Assembly: GCA_903825615.1 (NCBI GenBank)
Contig: CAIKBK010000004.1
Coordinates: forward strand, 1 to 5,141
DNA length: 5,141 bases
Source of the DNA: Candidatus Vogelbacteria bacterium
Lineage (GTDB): Bacteria; Patescibacteriota; Minisyncoccia; Phycocordibacterales; XYD1-FULL-46-19
Reading direction: 5' to 3'
Part shown: piece after piece, positions 1-5,141 of the stretch
How the letters are laid out: every line of letters starts with the position of its first letter
How positions within the stretch are numbered: position 1 is the first letter of the stretch
The notes under the pieces: model-generated
The model's input: the letters and a program-made list of their open reading frames with translations, nothing else
Told to the model about the DNA's origin: nothing
The model's database searches: none
Position numbers and translations under genes: made by a program

Positions 1-720
1 CCCAACGACCGCTTGCTCAATATGATTAGCAAAGATACCACTCTGACTTCCGCCTTTTCTATCTGTGATGATGTCTTAAAACAAGCCGTCGAAGGCATTT
101 CTAATACTATTACCATGCCAGGGCAGATCAATGCTGACTTTGCTGATATCAAGACTATTATGCAGAACTCTGGCTCCACTCTGATGGGGGTCGGTGTGGC
201 GACGGGTGAAAATCGCGCCACCGAGGCTGCCAAAATGGCTATCAGCTCACCACTTTTGGATGTCTCGATTATCGGGGCCAAGGGCATCCTCTTTACGGTC
301 GCGGGTGGCGATGATGTTACCCTCTTTGAGCTGCAAGAAGCCGCTAAGGTTATTACTGAATCTATCGATCCCGAGGCCAAAGTTATCTTTGGTACTATCC
401 ACGACGATAAGATGAAAAAGAACGAGATTAAGATTACCGTTATTGCTTGCGGTTTCCCAAGTGATAATACTAAGAAGAGCCGTGATGATTTCAAGATTAA
501 CTTCAGTACTGATGCCGTTATAAACTCGGCAGCAGAAACAAATGAGCCCAAAAAAGAAATTGTTGATAATAATGAAACAAAAAAAGCTGAGTCACTAAAC
601 AGGTCAGAAAAAAAAGAAGCTGAGCCAATTCTTAGTCTCAAAGACAAGAAGGACGATAATCTGGATGACGATGATTGGTCTTCTATCCCCGCTTTCTTGC
701 GACGCTCCAAGACTAAGTAG
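1..720 (+). CDS. ftsZ: Cell division protein FtsZ, C-terminal part (5' end outside window)
   Basis: FtsZ is the tubulin-like GTPase that polymerises into the division ring at mid-cell. The frame is open from base 1 and begins with PNDRLL, the conserved segment at the end of the GTP-binding domain. The true start is therefore upstream, and the TTG at 13 is not a start. Visible family marks are the T7 synergy-loop segment NADFADIK (about residue 44 of the visible part), which supplies the catalytic Asp to the neighbouring subunit, then GENRATEAAKMAISSPLL, and GTIHDD with VTVIACGF at the end of the C-terminal subdomain. A Lys/Glu/Asp-rich disordered linker follows, ending in the C-terminal peptide IPAFLRR, the conserved docking motif for membrane anchors such as FtsA. 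All expected residues are present, so the protein looks functional. It ends in TAG 12 nt before the flavoprotein gene, with no terminator between them, so read-through is likely. Identification is certain. Confidence 0.97.
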   Translation, partial: PNDRLLNMISKDTTLTSAFSICDDVLKQAVEGISNTITMPGQINADFADIKTIMQNSGSTLMGVGVATGENRATEAAKMAISSPLLDVSIIGAKGILFTVAGGDDVTLFELQEAAKVITESIDPEAKVIFGTIHDDKMKKNEIKITVIACGFPSDNTKKSRDDFKINFSTDAVINSAAETNEPKKEIVDNNETKKAESLNRSEKKEAEPILSLKDKKDDNLDDDDWSSIPAFLRRSKTK

Positions 721-732: not shown

Positions 733-1674
733 ATGTTTGATGTAATTATAATCGGTGGTGGACCCGCTGCTTGCTCGGCCGGTGTTTATGCTACCCGCAA
801 AAAATTAAAAACTTTAGTTATCGCCGAAGAGCTTGGTGGCCAGTCGGCTGTCTCGCCCGAAATTCAAAATTGGCTGGGAGAGATAAGTATCCCTGGAGCC
901 GAACTCTCCAAGAAATTTGTTAATCATCTCCGCTCTTATGAAGGAGAAAGTTTGACTATAAAAATGGGTGTAGTAACTGGCGTTAATAAAGAAGGTAATT
1001 TCTTTAAAGTTAATACTGACGGCAATATCTATGAAAGCAAAACAATCTTTATGGCCACCGGTGGCCGACGCCGCAAATTAGAGATTAAGGGTGCTGACAT
1101 TTTTGAACATAAAGGACTCACCTACTGCCCTTCCTGCGATGGCCCCTTATTCAGTGGACAAGATGTGGCGGTGATTGGAGGCGGTAATGCCGGTTTTGGC
1201 ACGGCGGGTCAACTCCTTGCTTATTGCCAGAGCGTGACCTTGCTTGAAATGATGCCCGAATTCCGCGCTGAAGCAATGACGGTGGAAAAGTTAAAACAAA
1301 ACCATAATTTTAAAGCGTTTAACAATCTTGAAATCATCGAGATTAAGGGTGACCCTTCGATTCCCTCAGGGCAAGTAAATTTTGTAAAAAGTTTAGTTTA
1401 TAAAAATAAAGAAACCGACGAAATTATAGATTTACCTGTTACTGGCATTTTTGTCGAGATTGGTTTCGTGCCTAATACTGAGATGGTTAAGAGCTTGGTT
1501 AACCTTAGCCCGGCTGGCTATATTATGGTTGACCACCAAACTCAAAGAGCCTCACAAGAAGGTATCTGGGCGGCCGGTGACTGCTCCGATGTAAAGTATC
1601 ATCAAAATGGCATCGCCGCTGGTGATGCTGTCAAAGCCACCGAAGACATTTACGAATTTCTAAAGTCCCGCTAA
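733..1674 (+). CDS. trxB: Thioredoxin reductase-like / AhpF-type FAD-dependent disulfide oxidoreductase
   Basis: Cytoplasmic FAD enzyme of the low-molecular-weight thioredoxin reductase family, passing electrons from NAD(P)H to a thiol partner through a redox-active CxxC. At 313 residues it has the usual length. Seen in order: FAD-binding GGGPAA (residues 8-13), ATGG (108-111), the active-site pair C132-P-S-C135 followed by DGPLF, a second nucleotide-binding GGGNAG (149-154), and the C-terminal FAD motif AAGDC (280-284). Two details resemble the reductase part of AhpF more than TrxB: the YCPxCDGPLF context, and LLEMMPEFRAE where NADPH-dependent TrxB has HRR. Glu172 at that place suggests NADH preference, which is an inference. 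The AhpF N-terminal thioredoxin-like domains are absent, so a separate thioredoxin or glutaredoxin-like partner would be needed. No Shine-Dalgarno site precedes the ATG. The last 15 bp overlap the convergent transporter gene. The family is certain; TrxB versus another role is less so. Confidence 0.9.
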   Translation: MFDVIIIGGGPAACSAGVYATRKKLKTLVIAEELGGQSAVSPEIQNWLGEISIPGAELSKKFVNHLRSYEGESLTIKMGVVTGVNKEGNFFKVNTDGNIYESKTIFMATGGRRRKLEIKGADIFEHKGLTYCPSCDGPLFSGQDVAVIGGGNAGFGTAGQLLAYCQSVTLLEMMPEFRAEAMTVEKLKQNHNFKAFNNLEIIEIKGDPSIPSGQVNFVKSLVYKNKETDEIIDLPVTGIFVEIGFVPNTEMVKSLVNLSPAGYIMVDHQTQRASQEGIWAAGDCSDVKYHQNGIAAGDAVKATEDIYEFLKSR

Positions 1675-2382
1675 AGTGATAGCTAAGTAAAGTACGACAA
1701 TCCCTAAGATTGTCATTAGGGTTGTTAATTGTGTCGGGTGACCGTGATGACTCTCGGGCAAGAGCTCGGAGGCGCCAATGTAGAGGAAGAAGCCGGTAAA
1801 GAGAGCCAGTATTAGTCCGAGCCAAGATTCAGGCAAAGAGAAGAAGAGGGTGGAGAAAATACCGAGCGCTGGTGCCAGCGAAGCAATGAGAAGCCAGCGT
1901 AGGGCCTTCTTTTTATCTCCCCCATTTTTAAGCGTTAAGCCAACAATATTCAAACCATCGGAAAAATTATGAGATAAGACCGCCAGAGCTAAGATTAAAC
2001 CGACTTCGGTCGAAACTTGGAAAGCCAGGCCAACGGCCAAGCCGTCAATCACACTGTGCACCGCCAAGATTAAAGCCGACAAAGACTTTTTCTTATGATG
2101 AGGATTCTCGCAATGCTCATCTTCGTGAGTCTGAAAGAAAAGCAAACGATCCAAAATCAGATAGATTATAAAACCTAGAGCCACTAGTGAAGTGGTAAGA
2201 GGAACGCTAAAAATATTTGTGTTCAGCTCTAGCGCTTCAGGCAAGAGATCAAAAAAAGCCACCCCAATTACCGCTCCCGCTGAGAAACCTAAGATCAAGT
2301 GGAGTTTATCTCTAAAGCGGAAGGCGAATAAGCCTCCAACAAAAGCCGAGCAGAAAGCAGCCAAACCAATTAGAATTAACAT
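1660..2382 (-). CDS. ZIP family divalent metal transporter
   Basis: Integral inner-membrane transporter of 240 residues, a normal length for the bacterial ZIP family, which imports zinc and sometimes iron or manganese. About seven to eight hydrophobic segments are visible. The hallmark metal-site helices are HSVIDGLAVG (residues 109-118, ZIP helix 4, usually HNxxDG) and HNFSDG (138-143, helix 5, often HExPEG). In helix 5 the usual Glu residues are replaced by Asn139 and Asp142, so metal preference may differ from classical ZupT-like members. FFDLLPEAL (43-51) and ASELLPE (204-210) are further family-like acidic motifs. A loop with HEDEHCENPHH (86-96) just before helix 4 is the typical His-rich metal-binding loop, and HHGH (212-215) is a second His cluster. 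The ATG is 6 nt from a TATAGT box, suggesting a leaderless message. The 3' end overlaps the flavoprotein gene on the opposite strand. Substrate is not determinable here. Confidence 0.93.
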   Translation of the reverse strand: MLILIGLAAFCSAFVGGLFAFRFRDKLHLILGFSAGAVIGVAFFDLLPEALELNTNIFSVPLTTSLVALGFIIYLILDRLLFFQTHEDEHCENPHHKKKSLSALILAVHSVIDGLAVGLAFQVSTEVGLILALAVLSHNFSDGLNIVGLTLKNGGDKKKALRWLLIASLAPALGIFSTLFFSLPESWLGLILALFTGFFLYIGASELLPESHHGHPTQLTTLMTILGIVVLYLAITLAGL

Positions 2383-2462: not shown

Positions 2463-2657
2463 TTAGACTATCTTCTTAGCTAAGAAGATAACATAAATGG
2501 CCGAAGCGCCAACGAGCGCATAGACAACGGTTTGCAATAATATGTTATACCTAAGCAAGAAGCCGACTAGATCAAATTTAAGAATAGCAATCAGACCCCA
2601 ATTAAGTCCACCGATAATCAGTAAGACTAAGGCAACCCAATTTAAAATTTTAATCAT
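2463..2657 (-). CDS. DUF378 family small membrane protein
   Basis: A 64-residue protein with two predicted transmembrane helices (about residues 4-26 and 40-61) joined by a short loop. The first helix carries the conserved IIGGLNWGL signature (about residues 14-22) and is followed by FDLVGFLL. The second contains VVYALVGASAIYVI. Together these match the DUF378 family (YuzA-like), whose function is unknown. Length and architecture are normal for the family. The start ATG is preceded by a very A/T-rich leader without a Shine-Dalgarno site. The proposed promoter at 2698-2706 predicts a leader of about 34 nt. A strong hairpin terminator follows the stop, so the gene is probably a single transcription unit. 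The family call is based on recognition of the signature; no role can be deduced from the neighbours. Confidence 0.88.
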   Translation of the reverse strand: MIKILNWVALVLLIIGGLNWGLIAILKFDLVGFLLRYNILLQTVVYALVGASAIYVIFLAKKIV

Positions 2658-2697: not shown

Positions 2698-2706
2698 ATT
2701 ATACCA
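2698..2706 (-). promoter_or_regulatory. Putative extended -10 promoter of the DUF378 gene
   Basis: The minus strand reads TGG-TATAAT, a perfect -10 with a TGn extension, 40 nt upstream of the ATG at 2657. No good -35 hexamer is found at 16-18 nt, which is acceptable for extended -10 promoters. The nine bases are the exact inverted copy of the promoter element facing the other way at 2762-2770. Confidence 0.55.
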
Positions 2707-2761
2707 AAAGAATAACCAATTTGACGAGAGGTTTATTCACAGCCCATTCTTCGGACCTTAG

Positions 2762-2770
2762 TGGTATAAT
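2762..2770 (+). promoter_or_regulatory. Putative extended -10 promoter of the 102-residue membrane protein gene
   Basis: TGG-TATAAT on the plus strand lies 19 nt before the ATG at 2790. Transcription would begin near 2777, giving a leader of only about 13 nt. No -35 box is convincing at the expected distance; TTGACG at 2721-2726 is too far away (38 nt). With its inverted twin at 2698-2706 it forms a divergent promoter pair in the 132-bp intergenic region. Confidence 0.55.
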
Positions 2771-2789
2771 TAACCCCATAGAATAAAGT

Positions 2790-3098
2790 ATGAATATTAT
2801 CACTTATCTTAGACATTGGCGCTTTGAAGGTTATGCCTTATTTGACCTCACTCTCTCCTTCTTGGGGATGTGGCTTCTCTCTTCTCTCCTCTCCAAAATC
2901 TTTCGTCTTATTCACGTGCAAGTCCCAACAATCAATTGGGTCATTCTCACTCTACCGATTAGTATAGTTATTCATCTCTTAGTCGGGCGTCATACTCCCA
3001 TGGTCCAAAATTTTCTAAATCCTCACGGTCATTGGACGCTTAAAATCATTATTGTTGTCTGTTTAATTTTCGGTCTATGGGGAATTAAAATAAGATAG
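2790..3098 (+). CDS. Hypothetical membrane protein with three transmembrane segments
   Basis: I do not recognise this 102-residue protein. It has a short basic N-terminal stretch (LRHWRFEG, residues 7-14), then three strongly hydrophobic segments at about 15-37, 48-66 and 83-100, with a HTPMVQNFLNPHGHW loop (68-82) rich in His, Asn and Pro between the last two. No cysteine pair, nucleotide-binding or catalytic motif is seen. It ends in IKIR right after the third helix, so only a minimal tail remains. The clear promoter just upstream, the single long hydrophobic frame and the hairpin after its TAG support a real gene. No Shine-Dalgarno site is apparent (only AATAAAG before the ATG). Its neighbour on the divergent side is also a small membrane protein, but that does not establish shared function. 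Confidence 0.8.
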   Translation: MNIITYLRHWRFEGYALFDLTLSFLGMWLLSSLLSKIFRLIHVQVPTINWVILTLPISIVIHLLVGRHTPMVQNFLNPHGHWTLKIIIVVCLIFGLWGIKIR

Positions 3099-3113
3099 GA
3101 GTTAAAAAGCAAA

Positions 3114-3143
3114 GGGCCCAAACGCACGAAGACGTTTGGGTCC
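3114..3143. terminator. Hairpin between convergent genes, probable bidirectional terminator
   Basis: Bases 3114-3124 and 3133-3143 form an 11-bp stem with an 8-nt loop. The one imperfect pair (3116/3141) is G-U when read on the plus strand and A-C on the minus strand. It lies between the stop of the 102-residue gene (3098) and the stop of the DnaA-like gene (3155). On the minus strand the stem is followed by a T-rich run (TTTGCTTTTT), so it best fits termination of the DnaA-like gene. The plus-strand side has only a weak T-run. Confidence 0.7.
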
Positions 3144-3154
3144 TGTTGAATTTA

Positions 3155-4801
3155 TTAACAGCGCTCGCGACAACGTTTTTTTGTCGCAGGTCTCCAGTCT
3201 TCCAATTGGCGAGCCCAAAGTTTCTTCTTACTCTCTGGTACAGTAAAACGGAGAAGAAGCTCTCTGATCAAACCACTTAGCTGAAGACGAGCCTCGGCCG
3301 ACTCTTCCAGAAGGCCCTTAACCCTCATTATCCCACCAGCAGTCATATCTAACGCTCGAAGAGCGCCAGGATAGAACCAGCCAGCCACAACCTCCCTCTC
3401 TAGACCCAAGACAAGAGAAGCAAGATAACAAGCCAGATCAAGAACTGGTTGGGGGGTAATGAGACGCGTTTCTTTCCGAAGTTCGGCATCCCTCTCGAAA
3501 ATTAAGGAGATAAGGTCATCCGCATCAGGCAGAAGCTTAAACAACTCCTGAGCCTCCGCTAAAGTGACACGATGACCATTGACCCCGCAACCCTGAGAGA
3601 AAGAGATAGTTCCCAAACGACTAAGGAGAAGGGAGAGCTCCCCTTCCTTAGTTTTCTTGATCAGCCAGTCGATAACTTTAGGATTGAGAGTGTCTCCACC
3701 CTTGTTACCTTCAGCTGTTACAAGACGTGGTGGATATTTAGCCAGAAACCTCTTGGCAACTTCTGGGTACGACGAGGCACCGATCTTTTCGACTCTGAAG
3801 ATTTGTAGATCTTTGAGTTCTCGGTACAACTCTGGACCCAAGTCTTCTTCTGTCGGCGGACGAGATAACGAGATAAGAACTCGGCCTCCGCGTTTCCCTC
3901 TTTCGCGAGTAAGACGTATGGCCTCAGCCATTTTTCGTCTCGTTCCCTTCGCTCCGCTGGAGGTACCATCGATATCCGTGATCACTAGAACTTTTGCCGA
4001 CAAAAGACATTTTTCAAAGATTCCTAAACGTCGTCTATCAACATTGGTTCCGCCAGATTCTCCAGTTGAGAAAAAAGAGGAGTAAAGACTCTGAAAAGTC
4101 TTACCTGTGACACAAAAGATATCGAGTTTCGGATCCACCTTGAGCATCGCTTGGAGCGACACATAGAGGAGCATCCTCTTACCGGACTCTTCGGGACCAC
4201 AGAGCACAAGACTCTTAAACAAGGGACGAGCCCGATTAGGCTTAGCCACTTCTTGAGTTGCCTCTAGCGCTAACCGATTAACAATCGAGTCTCCGACCAC
4301 AAAGTCTTCGAAATCAAAGTGTCCACTCGGTGGTTCGCCGGGCTTAAAGTCTTCCCGACTTCTTTTCCCTTTTAAGCGCAATCCCTTGCTGTCTTCGTCT
4401 GATTCTTCAGGAACACCTTCCAGATTCGCTTGAACCGGAGGGATGACCCCCTTGGCCTGTTCACAAAGGTTCTGGTCAACGACAAGCTTCCAAGTCTCTA
4501 AACCCTGCCCCTTGAAAGCCATGTCGATTGAAGCTCGGTAACTCTTTTTGGGATCACCCAGCCAACCAGAGAAGAATTCACTCGGCACATAGACGACCCC
4601 CTCAGACTTCCCAAGAAGGCCAGCCACCCGACCAAAACTCACCCCAGGCAAAGCGAACCAAACATCAAACATTGTGTCATCGCCCAAAATACTTCTTAAG
4701 CTCCCGTGGACAACACAATTGAATTCATTATCGATCTGGATCAAGGGAGCCAGACCGACATTGGCGTTCCCGCCGTTCTCTGTCTTCTCCTCGATACCCA
4801 T
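3155..4801 (-). CDS. Divergent DnaA-like protein with degenerate AAA+ ATPase motifs
   Basis: The 548 residues follow the domain order of the replication initiator DnaA. Positions count from the ATG at 4801. Residues about 35-110 resemble DnaA domain I (TMFDVWF, then YVPSEFFSGWL). A charged linker follows (about 115-160, with EESDED and KGKRSRED). GHFDFEDFVVGDS (160-172) matches the YTFDNFVVG entry to the AAA+ domain. The Walker A position reads GPEESGKR (202-209), with Arg where Thr/Ser is required. Walker B reads VLVITDID (271-278), with Thr for the first Asp. LISLSRPP (309-316) matches the sensor I strand. The SRF arginine-finger motif is not recognisable, and the sensor II helix reads EGELSLLLSRL without the usual Arg. 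The C-terminal region (about 448-520) aligns with domain IV, with DMTAGG in place of the DHTT signature and a final SGLIREL. An extra tail ends in KKRCRERC. It is longer than usual DnaA (about 440-470). DnaA family membership is well supported; an ATP-independent paralogue role is inference. Confidence 0.8.
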   Translation of the reverse strand: MGIEEKTENGGNANVGLAPLIQIDNEFNCVVHGSLRSILGDDTMFDVWFALPGVSFGRVAGLLGKSEGVVYVPSEFFSGWLGDPKKSYRASIDMAFKGQGLETWKLVVDQNLCEQAKGVIPPVQANLEGVPEESDEDSKGLRLKGKRSREDFKPGEPPSGHFDFEDFVVGDSIVNRLALEATQEVAKPNRARPLFKSLVLCGPEESGKRMLLYVSLQAMLKVDPKLDIFCVTGKTFQSLYSSFFSTGESGGTNVDRRRLGIFEKCLLSAKVLVITDIDGTSSGAKGTRRKMAEAIRLTRERGKRGGRVLISLSRPPTEEDLGPELYRELKDLQIFRVEKIGASSYPEVAKRFLAKYPPRLVTAEGNKGGDTLNPKVIDWLIKKTKEGELSLLLSRLGTISFSQGCGVNGHRVTLAEAQELFKLLPDADDLISLIFERDAELRKETRLITPQPVLDLACYLASLVLGLEREVVAGWFYPGALRALDMTAGGIMRVKGLLEESAEARLQLSGLIRELLLRFTVPESKKKLWARQLEDWRPATKKRCRERC

Positions 4802-4809
4802 AATCGACA

Positions 4810-4817
4810 CTCCTTCT
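4810..4817 (-). promoter_or_regulatory. Strong ribosome binding site deciding the start of the DnaA-like gene
   Basis: The minus strand reads AGAAGGAG, with 8 nt to the ATG at 4801-4799. A GTG at 4810-4808 in the same frame would add three residues but overlaps this Shine-Dalgarno site itself, so the ATG is the better start. It is the only clear Shine-Dalgarno site in the window. Confidence 0.75.
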
Positions 4818-4870
4818 GCTTCGTTTTGTTTACACTGTCAATGCCAAAGACCACACACTAGTCCTTTTGG

Positions 4871-4898
4871 ATTCTAGCACAATAAAAATAAACTCCAA
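4871..4898 (-). promoter_or_regulatory. Putative promoter of the DnaA-like gene
   Basis: On the minus strand TTGGAG (4898-4893) is separated by 16 nt from TAGAAT (4876-4871), which has a TGC extension just before it. A run of eight T lies immediately upstream of the -35 and may act as an UP-like element. The predicted start near 4864 gives a leader of about 60 nt. CCAAAGAC (4843-4850) and GTCCTTTTGG (4861-4870) could pair, with bulges, around that start; this could be a leader hairpin or operator but is weak. Confidence 0.5.
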
Positions 4899-4901
4899 GC
4901 C

Positions 4902-4932
4902 AAAAAAAACGCCTCTACCACAAGGGTGTTTT
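4902..4932 (-). terminator. Weak terminator-like hairpin with T8 tract
   Basis: Bases 4906-4913 and 4925-4932 can pair over 8 bp with one imperfect pair and an 11-nt loop. On the minus strand the stem runs into an unbroken run of eight T. It may be a second terminator for the gene to the right, placed just before the promoter of the DnaA-like gene. The core has few G-C pairs, so confidence is low. Confidence 0.35.
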
Positions 4933-4981
4933 AGTAGACTTTTAGAACTTAGACTGAGATATATAGGTCAGGGTATGAAAA

Positions 4982-5011
4982 GAGAGGTGTCCGCTTGCGC
5001 GGGCACCTCTC
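4982..5011 (-). terminator. Strong GC-rich hairpin, probable terminator of the right-hand gene
   Basis: Bases 4982-4994 and 4999-5011 form a 13-bp stem with a TTGC loop and a single imperfect pair (4990/5003). On the minus strand the stem is followed by TTTTCAT, and it lies 15 bp beyond the TGA of the partial frame at 5027-5141, the normal place for an intrinsic terminator. On the plus strand GGTGATTTT follows, a less direct T-run. There is no plus-strand gene just upstream that needs a terminator. Confidence 0.65.
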
Positions 5012-5026
5012 GGTGATTTTCTGCAT

Positions 5027-5141
5027 TCACAGACTTTCGATCATTTTGCAGAACTCTGGCCATGAACCGACCCGTTTCGCGACCGTTCCTTCGTCAAGAT
5101 GGCTATTGTAGCCCCAAGAAAAGAGGAAACGGTGTGGAACG
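5027..5141 (-). CDS. Probable C-terminal end of an unrecognised gene (5' end outside window)
   Basis: Reading the minus strand from the window edge, one frame is open for 37 codons and ends in TGA at 5029-5027. The visible residues begin VPHRFLFSWGYNSHLDEG and end FCKMIESL, a mixed, soluble-looking composition. I recognise no family. Support comes mainly from the strong hairpin terminator placed 15 bp beyond the stop. A second frame is also open here (32 codons, ending in TGA near 5042), so the choice of frame is not certain. The gene would be co-directional with the DnaA-like gene but separated from it by hairpins and a promoter, so the two are probably independent transcription units. Confidence 0.45.
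   Translation of the reverse strand, partial: VPHRFLFSWGYNSHLDEGTVAKRVGSWPEFCKMIESL

Follow-up and report, generated by a model that had tools for sequence, protein, structure and literature searches.

Located on the reverse strand of a 5141-base contig from Candidatus Vogelbacteria is a 548-codon gene (positions 3155..4801) whose product resembles the replication initiator DnaA in layout and lacks several of the residues with which DnaA handles ATP. The question raised by this locus is whether such a protein is the initiator of its genome, the remnant of one, or a protein with a role of its own. The contig, C4, is in its entirety the window, that is, the whole stretch of DNA analyzed here, and belongs to genome G000 (578,335 bases on 117 contigs, 93.3% complete); the genomes of its relatives span 0.4-1.1 megabases. 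An earlier, sequence-only reading had described a protein of full DnaA architecture with an apparently dead ATPase centre. That observation proved essentially right, and more general than first stated because two relatives share the substitutions. The gene product is tentatively viewed as a rare accessory, ATP-uncoupled paralogue of DnaA that might compete with or modulate the ordinary initiator.

A diverged relative of DnaA

The 548-residue frame is real. It runs intact from ATG to TAA and is preceded by a GGAG motif, and shuffling the window 200 times produced stop-to-stop frames of at most 220 codons, versus the 548 of the gene. In what follows, the window protein is referred to as P0001 and its two relatives as P0002 and P0003. 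The gene and the regions of its product are as follows.

3155..4801, reverse strand: DnaA-related gene, 548 residues, ATG start, TAA stop
4457..4732, reverse strand: domain I-like region, residues 24-115, W48 and F76 kept
4322..4456, reverse strand: variable linker, residues 116-160, model confidence mostly very low
3767..4321, reverse strand: AAA+ base with a degenerate ATP site, residues 161-345
4175..4198, reverse strand: Walker A region GPEESGKR, residues 202-209 (GKK in P0002, GKS in P0003)
4046..4075, reverse strand: residues 243-252, inserted with respect to canonical DnaA (10 residues); short strands in the model
3962..3979, reverse strand: residues 275-280, Walker B region TDIDGT; none of the three proteins has the first Asp, D278 is invariant
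3512..3766, reverse strand: lid-like region, residues 346-430, with the subfamily block SFxQGxGVNGHxVTLxEAQEL; the column aligned with the sensor II Arg has lost it
3302..3511, reverse strand: residues 431-500, predicted with low confidence to be helical, where domain IV would lie
3158..3301, reverse strand: C-terminal extension with a conserved basic tail, residues 501-548

Profile and model comparisons identify the protein as a relative of DnaA that has diverged strongly, the homology being real but distant. A check with DnaA and Hda profiles, suggested alongside the sequence-only reading, bore out the kinship in part. Alignment of the three-protein family with 20 canonical DnaA rows by hhalign gave a probability of 98% (E 3e-13) over residues 60-436, and the DnaA profile TIGR00362 matched the window protein with an E-value of 6.7e-6. 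The score of 25.4 bits, however, lies well under the equivalog cut-off of 343.9, as do those of the two relatives (41.6 and 41.2 bits). The Pfam scan of the window protein returned no match, PF00308 (the DnaA AAA+ domain) included, and such a scan can thus overlook relatives of this kind; P0002 and P0003 do match PF00308 (35.6 and 35.0 bits, cut-off 23). The Hda profile TIGR03420 did not match the window protein and matched P0002 and P0003 weakly (25.2 and 26.4 bits), short of its cut-off of 194.8. Among the PHROGs there was a weak DnaC-like match to P0003 only.

Structure prediction pointed the same way. A model built from the three family rows, and hence containing no canonical DnaA sequence, was poor, with a mean predicted local distance difference test score (pLDDT) of 46.6, and DnaA chains were still ranked first when this low-confidence model was compared with the PDB. 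A 23-row model was better (mean pLDDT 64.1), but 20 of its rows are canonical. The AAA+ core was also similar in fold to the DnaC/DnaI helicase loaders. Of the full DnaA architecture proposed earlier, only domain I and the AAA+ base are supported. The assignment of domain IV is weak; it and the lid fall mostly below pLDDT 60 in the models. The RDHTTV signature of DnaA-box recognition is unrecognisable in the alignment with canonical DnaA, and the model in that region lies mostly below pLDDT 60. The insertion at residues 243-252 falls in the region where DnaA has its initiator-specific helices. All three proteins carry the basic C-terminal tail, with a net charge of +7 to +10 over 45 residues.

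Residues of the ATP site

The ATP-site columns were taken from an alignment of the three family rows, the window protein first, with the 20 canonical DnaA rows. As had been read from the sequence, the Walker A region of the window protein ends in GKR, the first Walker B Asp is replaced by Thr (ITDID), the SRF motif is absent, and the column aligned with the sensor II Arg contains another residue. Across the three proteins the Walker A Lys (K208 in the window protein) is invariant, and the Thr column that follows contains R/K/S. In Walker B the first Asp column reads T/P/T and the second D/D/N, the latter being D276 in the window protein. Beyond what was first noticed, the sensor I Asp column reads S/S/Q, and a further Arg of the Box VII stretch is replaced as well: one of its two Arg columns contains E/D/E, and the other, which corresponds to the SRF Arg, E/K/A. 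The sensor I column and the first Box VII Arg column are the likely assignments. The sensor II Arg column reads S/P/S. The alignment is least certain there, and an invariant Arg, R395, lies five residues on. Across the 148 columns that are near-constant in canonical DnaA (at least 19 of the 20 rows), the three proteins keep 36, 35, and 36, respectively; 21 are kept by all and 94 by none.

The statement that every ATP-handling position is altered was thus too strong. It holds for the other sites named, but K208 and D276 are kept, and P0003 retains a GKS. In E. coli, according to an excerpt of PMC3401641, mutation of the Box VII Arg blocks formation of the active complex, and mutation of the sensor II Arg lowers ATPase activity with oligomerisation still possible. 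Since no member of the family retains the canonical residue at the first Walker B Asp, sensor I, Box VII, or sensor II column, ATP-driven filament assembly is predicted to be lost. Against a plain reading as a dead ATPase centre stand the invariant Walker A Lys and the GKS of P0003, with which nucleotide binding may persist.

A small subfamily

In a database of ~5.8 billion proteins, each search of which scored only ~8,000 candidates, two relatives alone were found. Both are full-length, come from other contigs, and are 66% and 49% identical to the window protein. With the window protein they form a set of homologues that have lost the same canonical residues, namely the first Walker B Asp, the sensor I Asp, the Box VII Arg, and the sensor II Arg. 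The family also displays conservation of its own: 28 of the 42 columns in residues 254-295, including GAKGTRR, and 17 of the 21 in residues 400-420 are invariant, versus only three of eight in the P-loop. P0001 and P0002 are 72% identical over the AAA+ base and 59% over domain I. The shared losses together with these blocks argue, at the level of sequence, for a selected subfamily rather than decay, in agreement with what had been supposed from a single gene.

The gene is rare, being present in 1 of 16 genomes of the taxonomic family and 1 of 397 sampled genomes of the order. At E ≤1e-3 the profile of the three proteins matched 10 of the 16 and 143 of the 397, respectively, the only strong match in either set being G000 itself (1082.7 bits); the next scores were 26.8 and 32.6 bits. 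At E ≤1e-9 it matched 3 of 379 phylum genomes, and the two besides G000 (37.9 and 37.3 bits) were both canonical DnaA on reading. The family, order, and phylum sets overlap. Those other weak matches that were read or motif-filtered (nine loci) were canonical DnaA. With the protein query alone, only G000 matched among 61 relative genomes, and the genome-contig collection gave no relative when queried with the window protein and A1. A literature search of titles and abstract openings, itself weak evidence, found no such protein described.

Proposed role

The ATP switch of DnaA is a central timer of bacterial replication. A paralogue uncoupled from ATP would be unable to join ATP-driven DnaA filaments and, having no recognisable DnaA-box signature, would not locate DnaA boxes in the normal way. 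Its domain I could occupy the domain I partners of DnaA, or DnaA itself, while the basic tail would hold DNA, the outcome being that initiation is damped or redirected. Docking through domain I is suggested because W48 and F76, kept in all three proteins, align with W27 and F49 of B. subtilis DnaA (register checked), which, together with T26, are needed for DnaD binding according to an excerpt of PMC10201431. A broader proposal, and a rather doubtful one, is that these proteins represent an undescribed class of DnaA-derived pseudo-AAA+ regulators, found in bacteria with tiny genomes, in which the ATP switch has been dismantled and the docking domain I kept, the protein serving as a DnaA decoy that times the start of replication. 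A conserved relative of DnaA that has given up the switch and retained docking would amount to a naturally occurring separation-of-function protein; in a lineage whose genomes are very small, it would also be a candidate regulator of replication.

Several observations weigh against the proposed role. The third DnaD-contact residue, T26 in B. subtilis, is not kept, V/N/A being found instead. R395 and R336, invariant in all three proteins, may be sensor or finger residues that have shifted position. ATP may still bind, given the invariant Walker A Lys and the GKS of P0003. Domain IV is weakly assigned, and the model from the three family rows is of poor quality, as noted. Three sequences are too few to measure selection, and a canonical dnaA was not directly seen in G000.

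Genomic setting and a possible mobile origin

The other features of the window are listed below.

1-720, forward strand: 3' part of ftsZ (frame list and Pfam scan)
733-1674, forward strand: thioredoxin-reductase-like gene (trxB-like)
1660-2382, reverse strand: ZIP transporter gene
2463-2657, reverse strand: DUF378 gene, between the ZIP gene and orf102
2790-3098, forward strand: orf102, a small membrane-protein-like frame without a Pfam match
3113..3144, forward strand: terminator-like hairpin between orf102 and the DnaA-like gene, consensus match only
4982..5011, forward strand: terminator-like hairpin of 13 pairs upstream of the DnaA-like gene, consensus match only

The neighbours of the DnaA-like gene are accordingly ftsZ, trxB-like, ZIP, DUF378, and orf102; dnaN does not lie beside it within the window. 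A promoter scan gave no site at the start of the gene, an Rfam scan gave no relative, and no tRNA was found in the window. The contig may cut off another frame on the reverse strand at 5027-5140, of which it would include the 3' end (37 codons and a stop).

In genome G001, of the same genus, the genes for tRNA-Glu(ttc) and tRNA-Ser(cga) come after orf102 (L048 225-475), at the place occupied in the window (3099-3157) by the DnaA-like gene. In G003 the same two tRNA genes come after the ZIP gene (L049 7960-8202). By tblastn, the DUF378 gene of the window (2463-2657) has no counterpart in the corresponding region of G001, and G001 has an additional 210-residue frame between trxB and ZIP (L048 1593-2225) that is absent from the window. 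A mis-binned contig is unlikely: ftsZ, trxB, ZIP, and orf102 are 78-84% identical to those of G001, and the ftsZ part of the window has a single match in G000. There may be a chimeric join inside contig C4.

This setting bears on a somewhat unlikely alternative, namely that the gene encodes the replication initiator or control protein of an integrated mobile element, acting not by ATP-driven DnaA filaments but by other contacts with DNA or protein. Its accessory distribution (1 of 16 family and 1 of 397 order genomes) would fit, as would the tRNA-Glu gene adjoining orf102 in G001 where the window has the DnaA-like gene, and plasmid DnaA-like genes are known (excerpt of PMC1800911). Against it, there was no relative in the viral-contig collection (query A1) and no match in plasmid and phage records (query P0003 only); the Pfam scan of the window proteins showed no integrase; positions 2700-5141 contain no long repeat, only short unremarkable ones, attachment sites not having been further searched; and the remaining identified genes on the contig look chromosomal.

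Other readings and the ordinary dnaA

It is unlikely that the protein is instead a nucleotide-binding, non-hydrolysing AAA+ subunit whose fold or choice of partner still depends on bound ATP or ADP. The Walker A Lys kept in all three proteins and the GKS of P0003 would fit such a subunit, but the Walker A Ser/Thr is Arg or Lys in two of the three and none has the first Walker B Asp.

That the protein is the sole initiator of G000, having replaced canonical DnaA, was rejected as highly improbable. PF00308 matched 53 of the 61 genomes searched, G000 not among them despite its 93.3% completeness, and the G001 DnaA query returned nothing from it at E up to 10. Yet the G001 DnaN query found no match in G000 either; the second, canonical dnaA near dnaN, for which the sequence-only reading had suggested a search, was not found. 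The dnaN profile TIGR00663 matched 16 of 21 genomes, leaving G000, G002, G004, G010, and G016 unmatched; assemblies of this kind often lack dnaN, which shows only that the region is unassembled. In G001 the gene order, with names read from translations, is yidC, dnaA (L031 9638-11011), dnaN, a penicillin-binding-like gene, ruvC, and yebC. Contig C76 of G000 (L052) corresponds to the left side up to its end near L031:7265, and contig C46 (L062) starts on the right side at about L031:15220. The interval of ~8 kilobases that in G001 holds yidC, dnaA, dnaN, and the penicillin-binding-like gene falls between these two ends. Because dnaN is absent as well and the contig ends flank this interval, the canonical dnaA of G000 is probably in an assembly gap, and the window gene would therefore be a paralogue rather than a replacement. 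The paralogy proposed earlier fits this arrangement, although no second dnaA was directly seen. Searches of the metagenome-assembled genome G000 for replication genes would yield false absences.

A decaying dnaA duplicate would explain the 94 of 148 near-constant columns lost in all three proteins, but is very improbable given the intact 548-codon frame and full-length relatives (66% and 49% identical) with shared blocks and the same canonical residues replaced.

Comparison with known systems

An accessory, ATP-uncoupled DnaA paralogue invites comparison with Hda, which lacks domains I and IV and relies on an Arg of its own and on the sliding clamp. Hda is likewise a DnaA-related AAA+ protein, its profile TIGR03420 weakly matches P0002 and P0003, and a regulatory role for the window protein might be suggested by analogy; the window protein differs in possessing domain I and in having lost the Box VII Arg. 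The DnaC/DnaI loaders share a similar AAA+ core in fold comparison. DnaC proteins, however, keep the Box VII and sensor II arginines (excerpt of PMC3401641), which the window protein lacks, and its N-terminal region matches the end of DnaA domain I. The DnaA-like proteins of Rickettsia felis pRF are also encoded by extra genes besides the chromosomal initiator (excerpt of PMC1800911); they are plasmid-borne, in contrast to the chromosomal-looking setting here, and are likened by description rather than by one-to-one sequence comparison. From DnaA itself the window protein is separated by a score far under the equivalog cut-off, by the replaced Walker B, sensor I, Box VII, and sensor II residues, by the insertion at 243-252 and the extra basic C-terminal tail, and by an unrecognisable RDHTTV signature. 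It nevertheless shares with DnaA a domain I-like N-terminus, a linker, and an AAA+ base of the DnaA clade, and DnaA is its best fold match.
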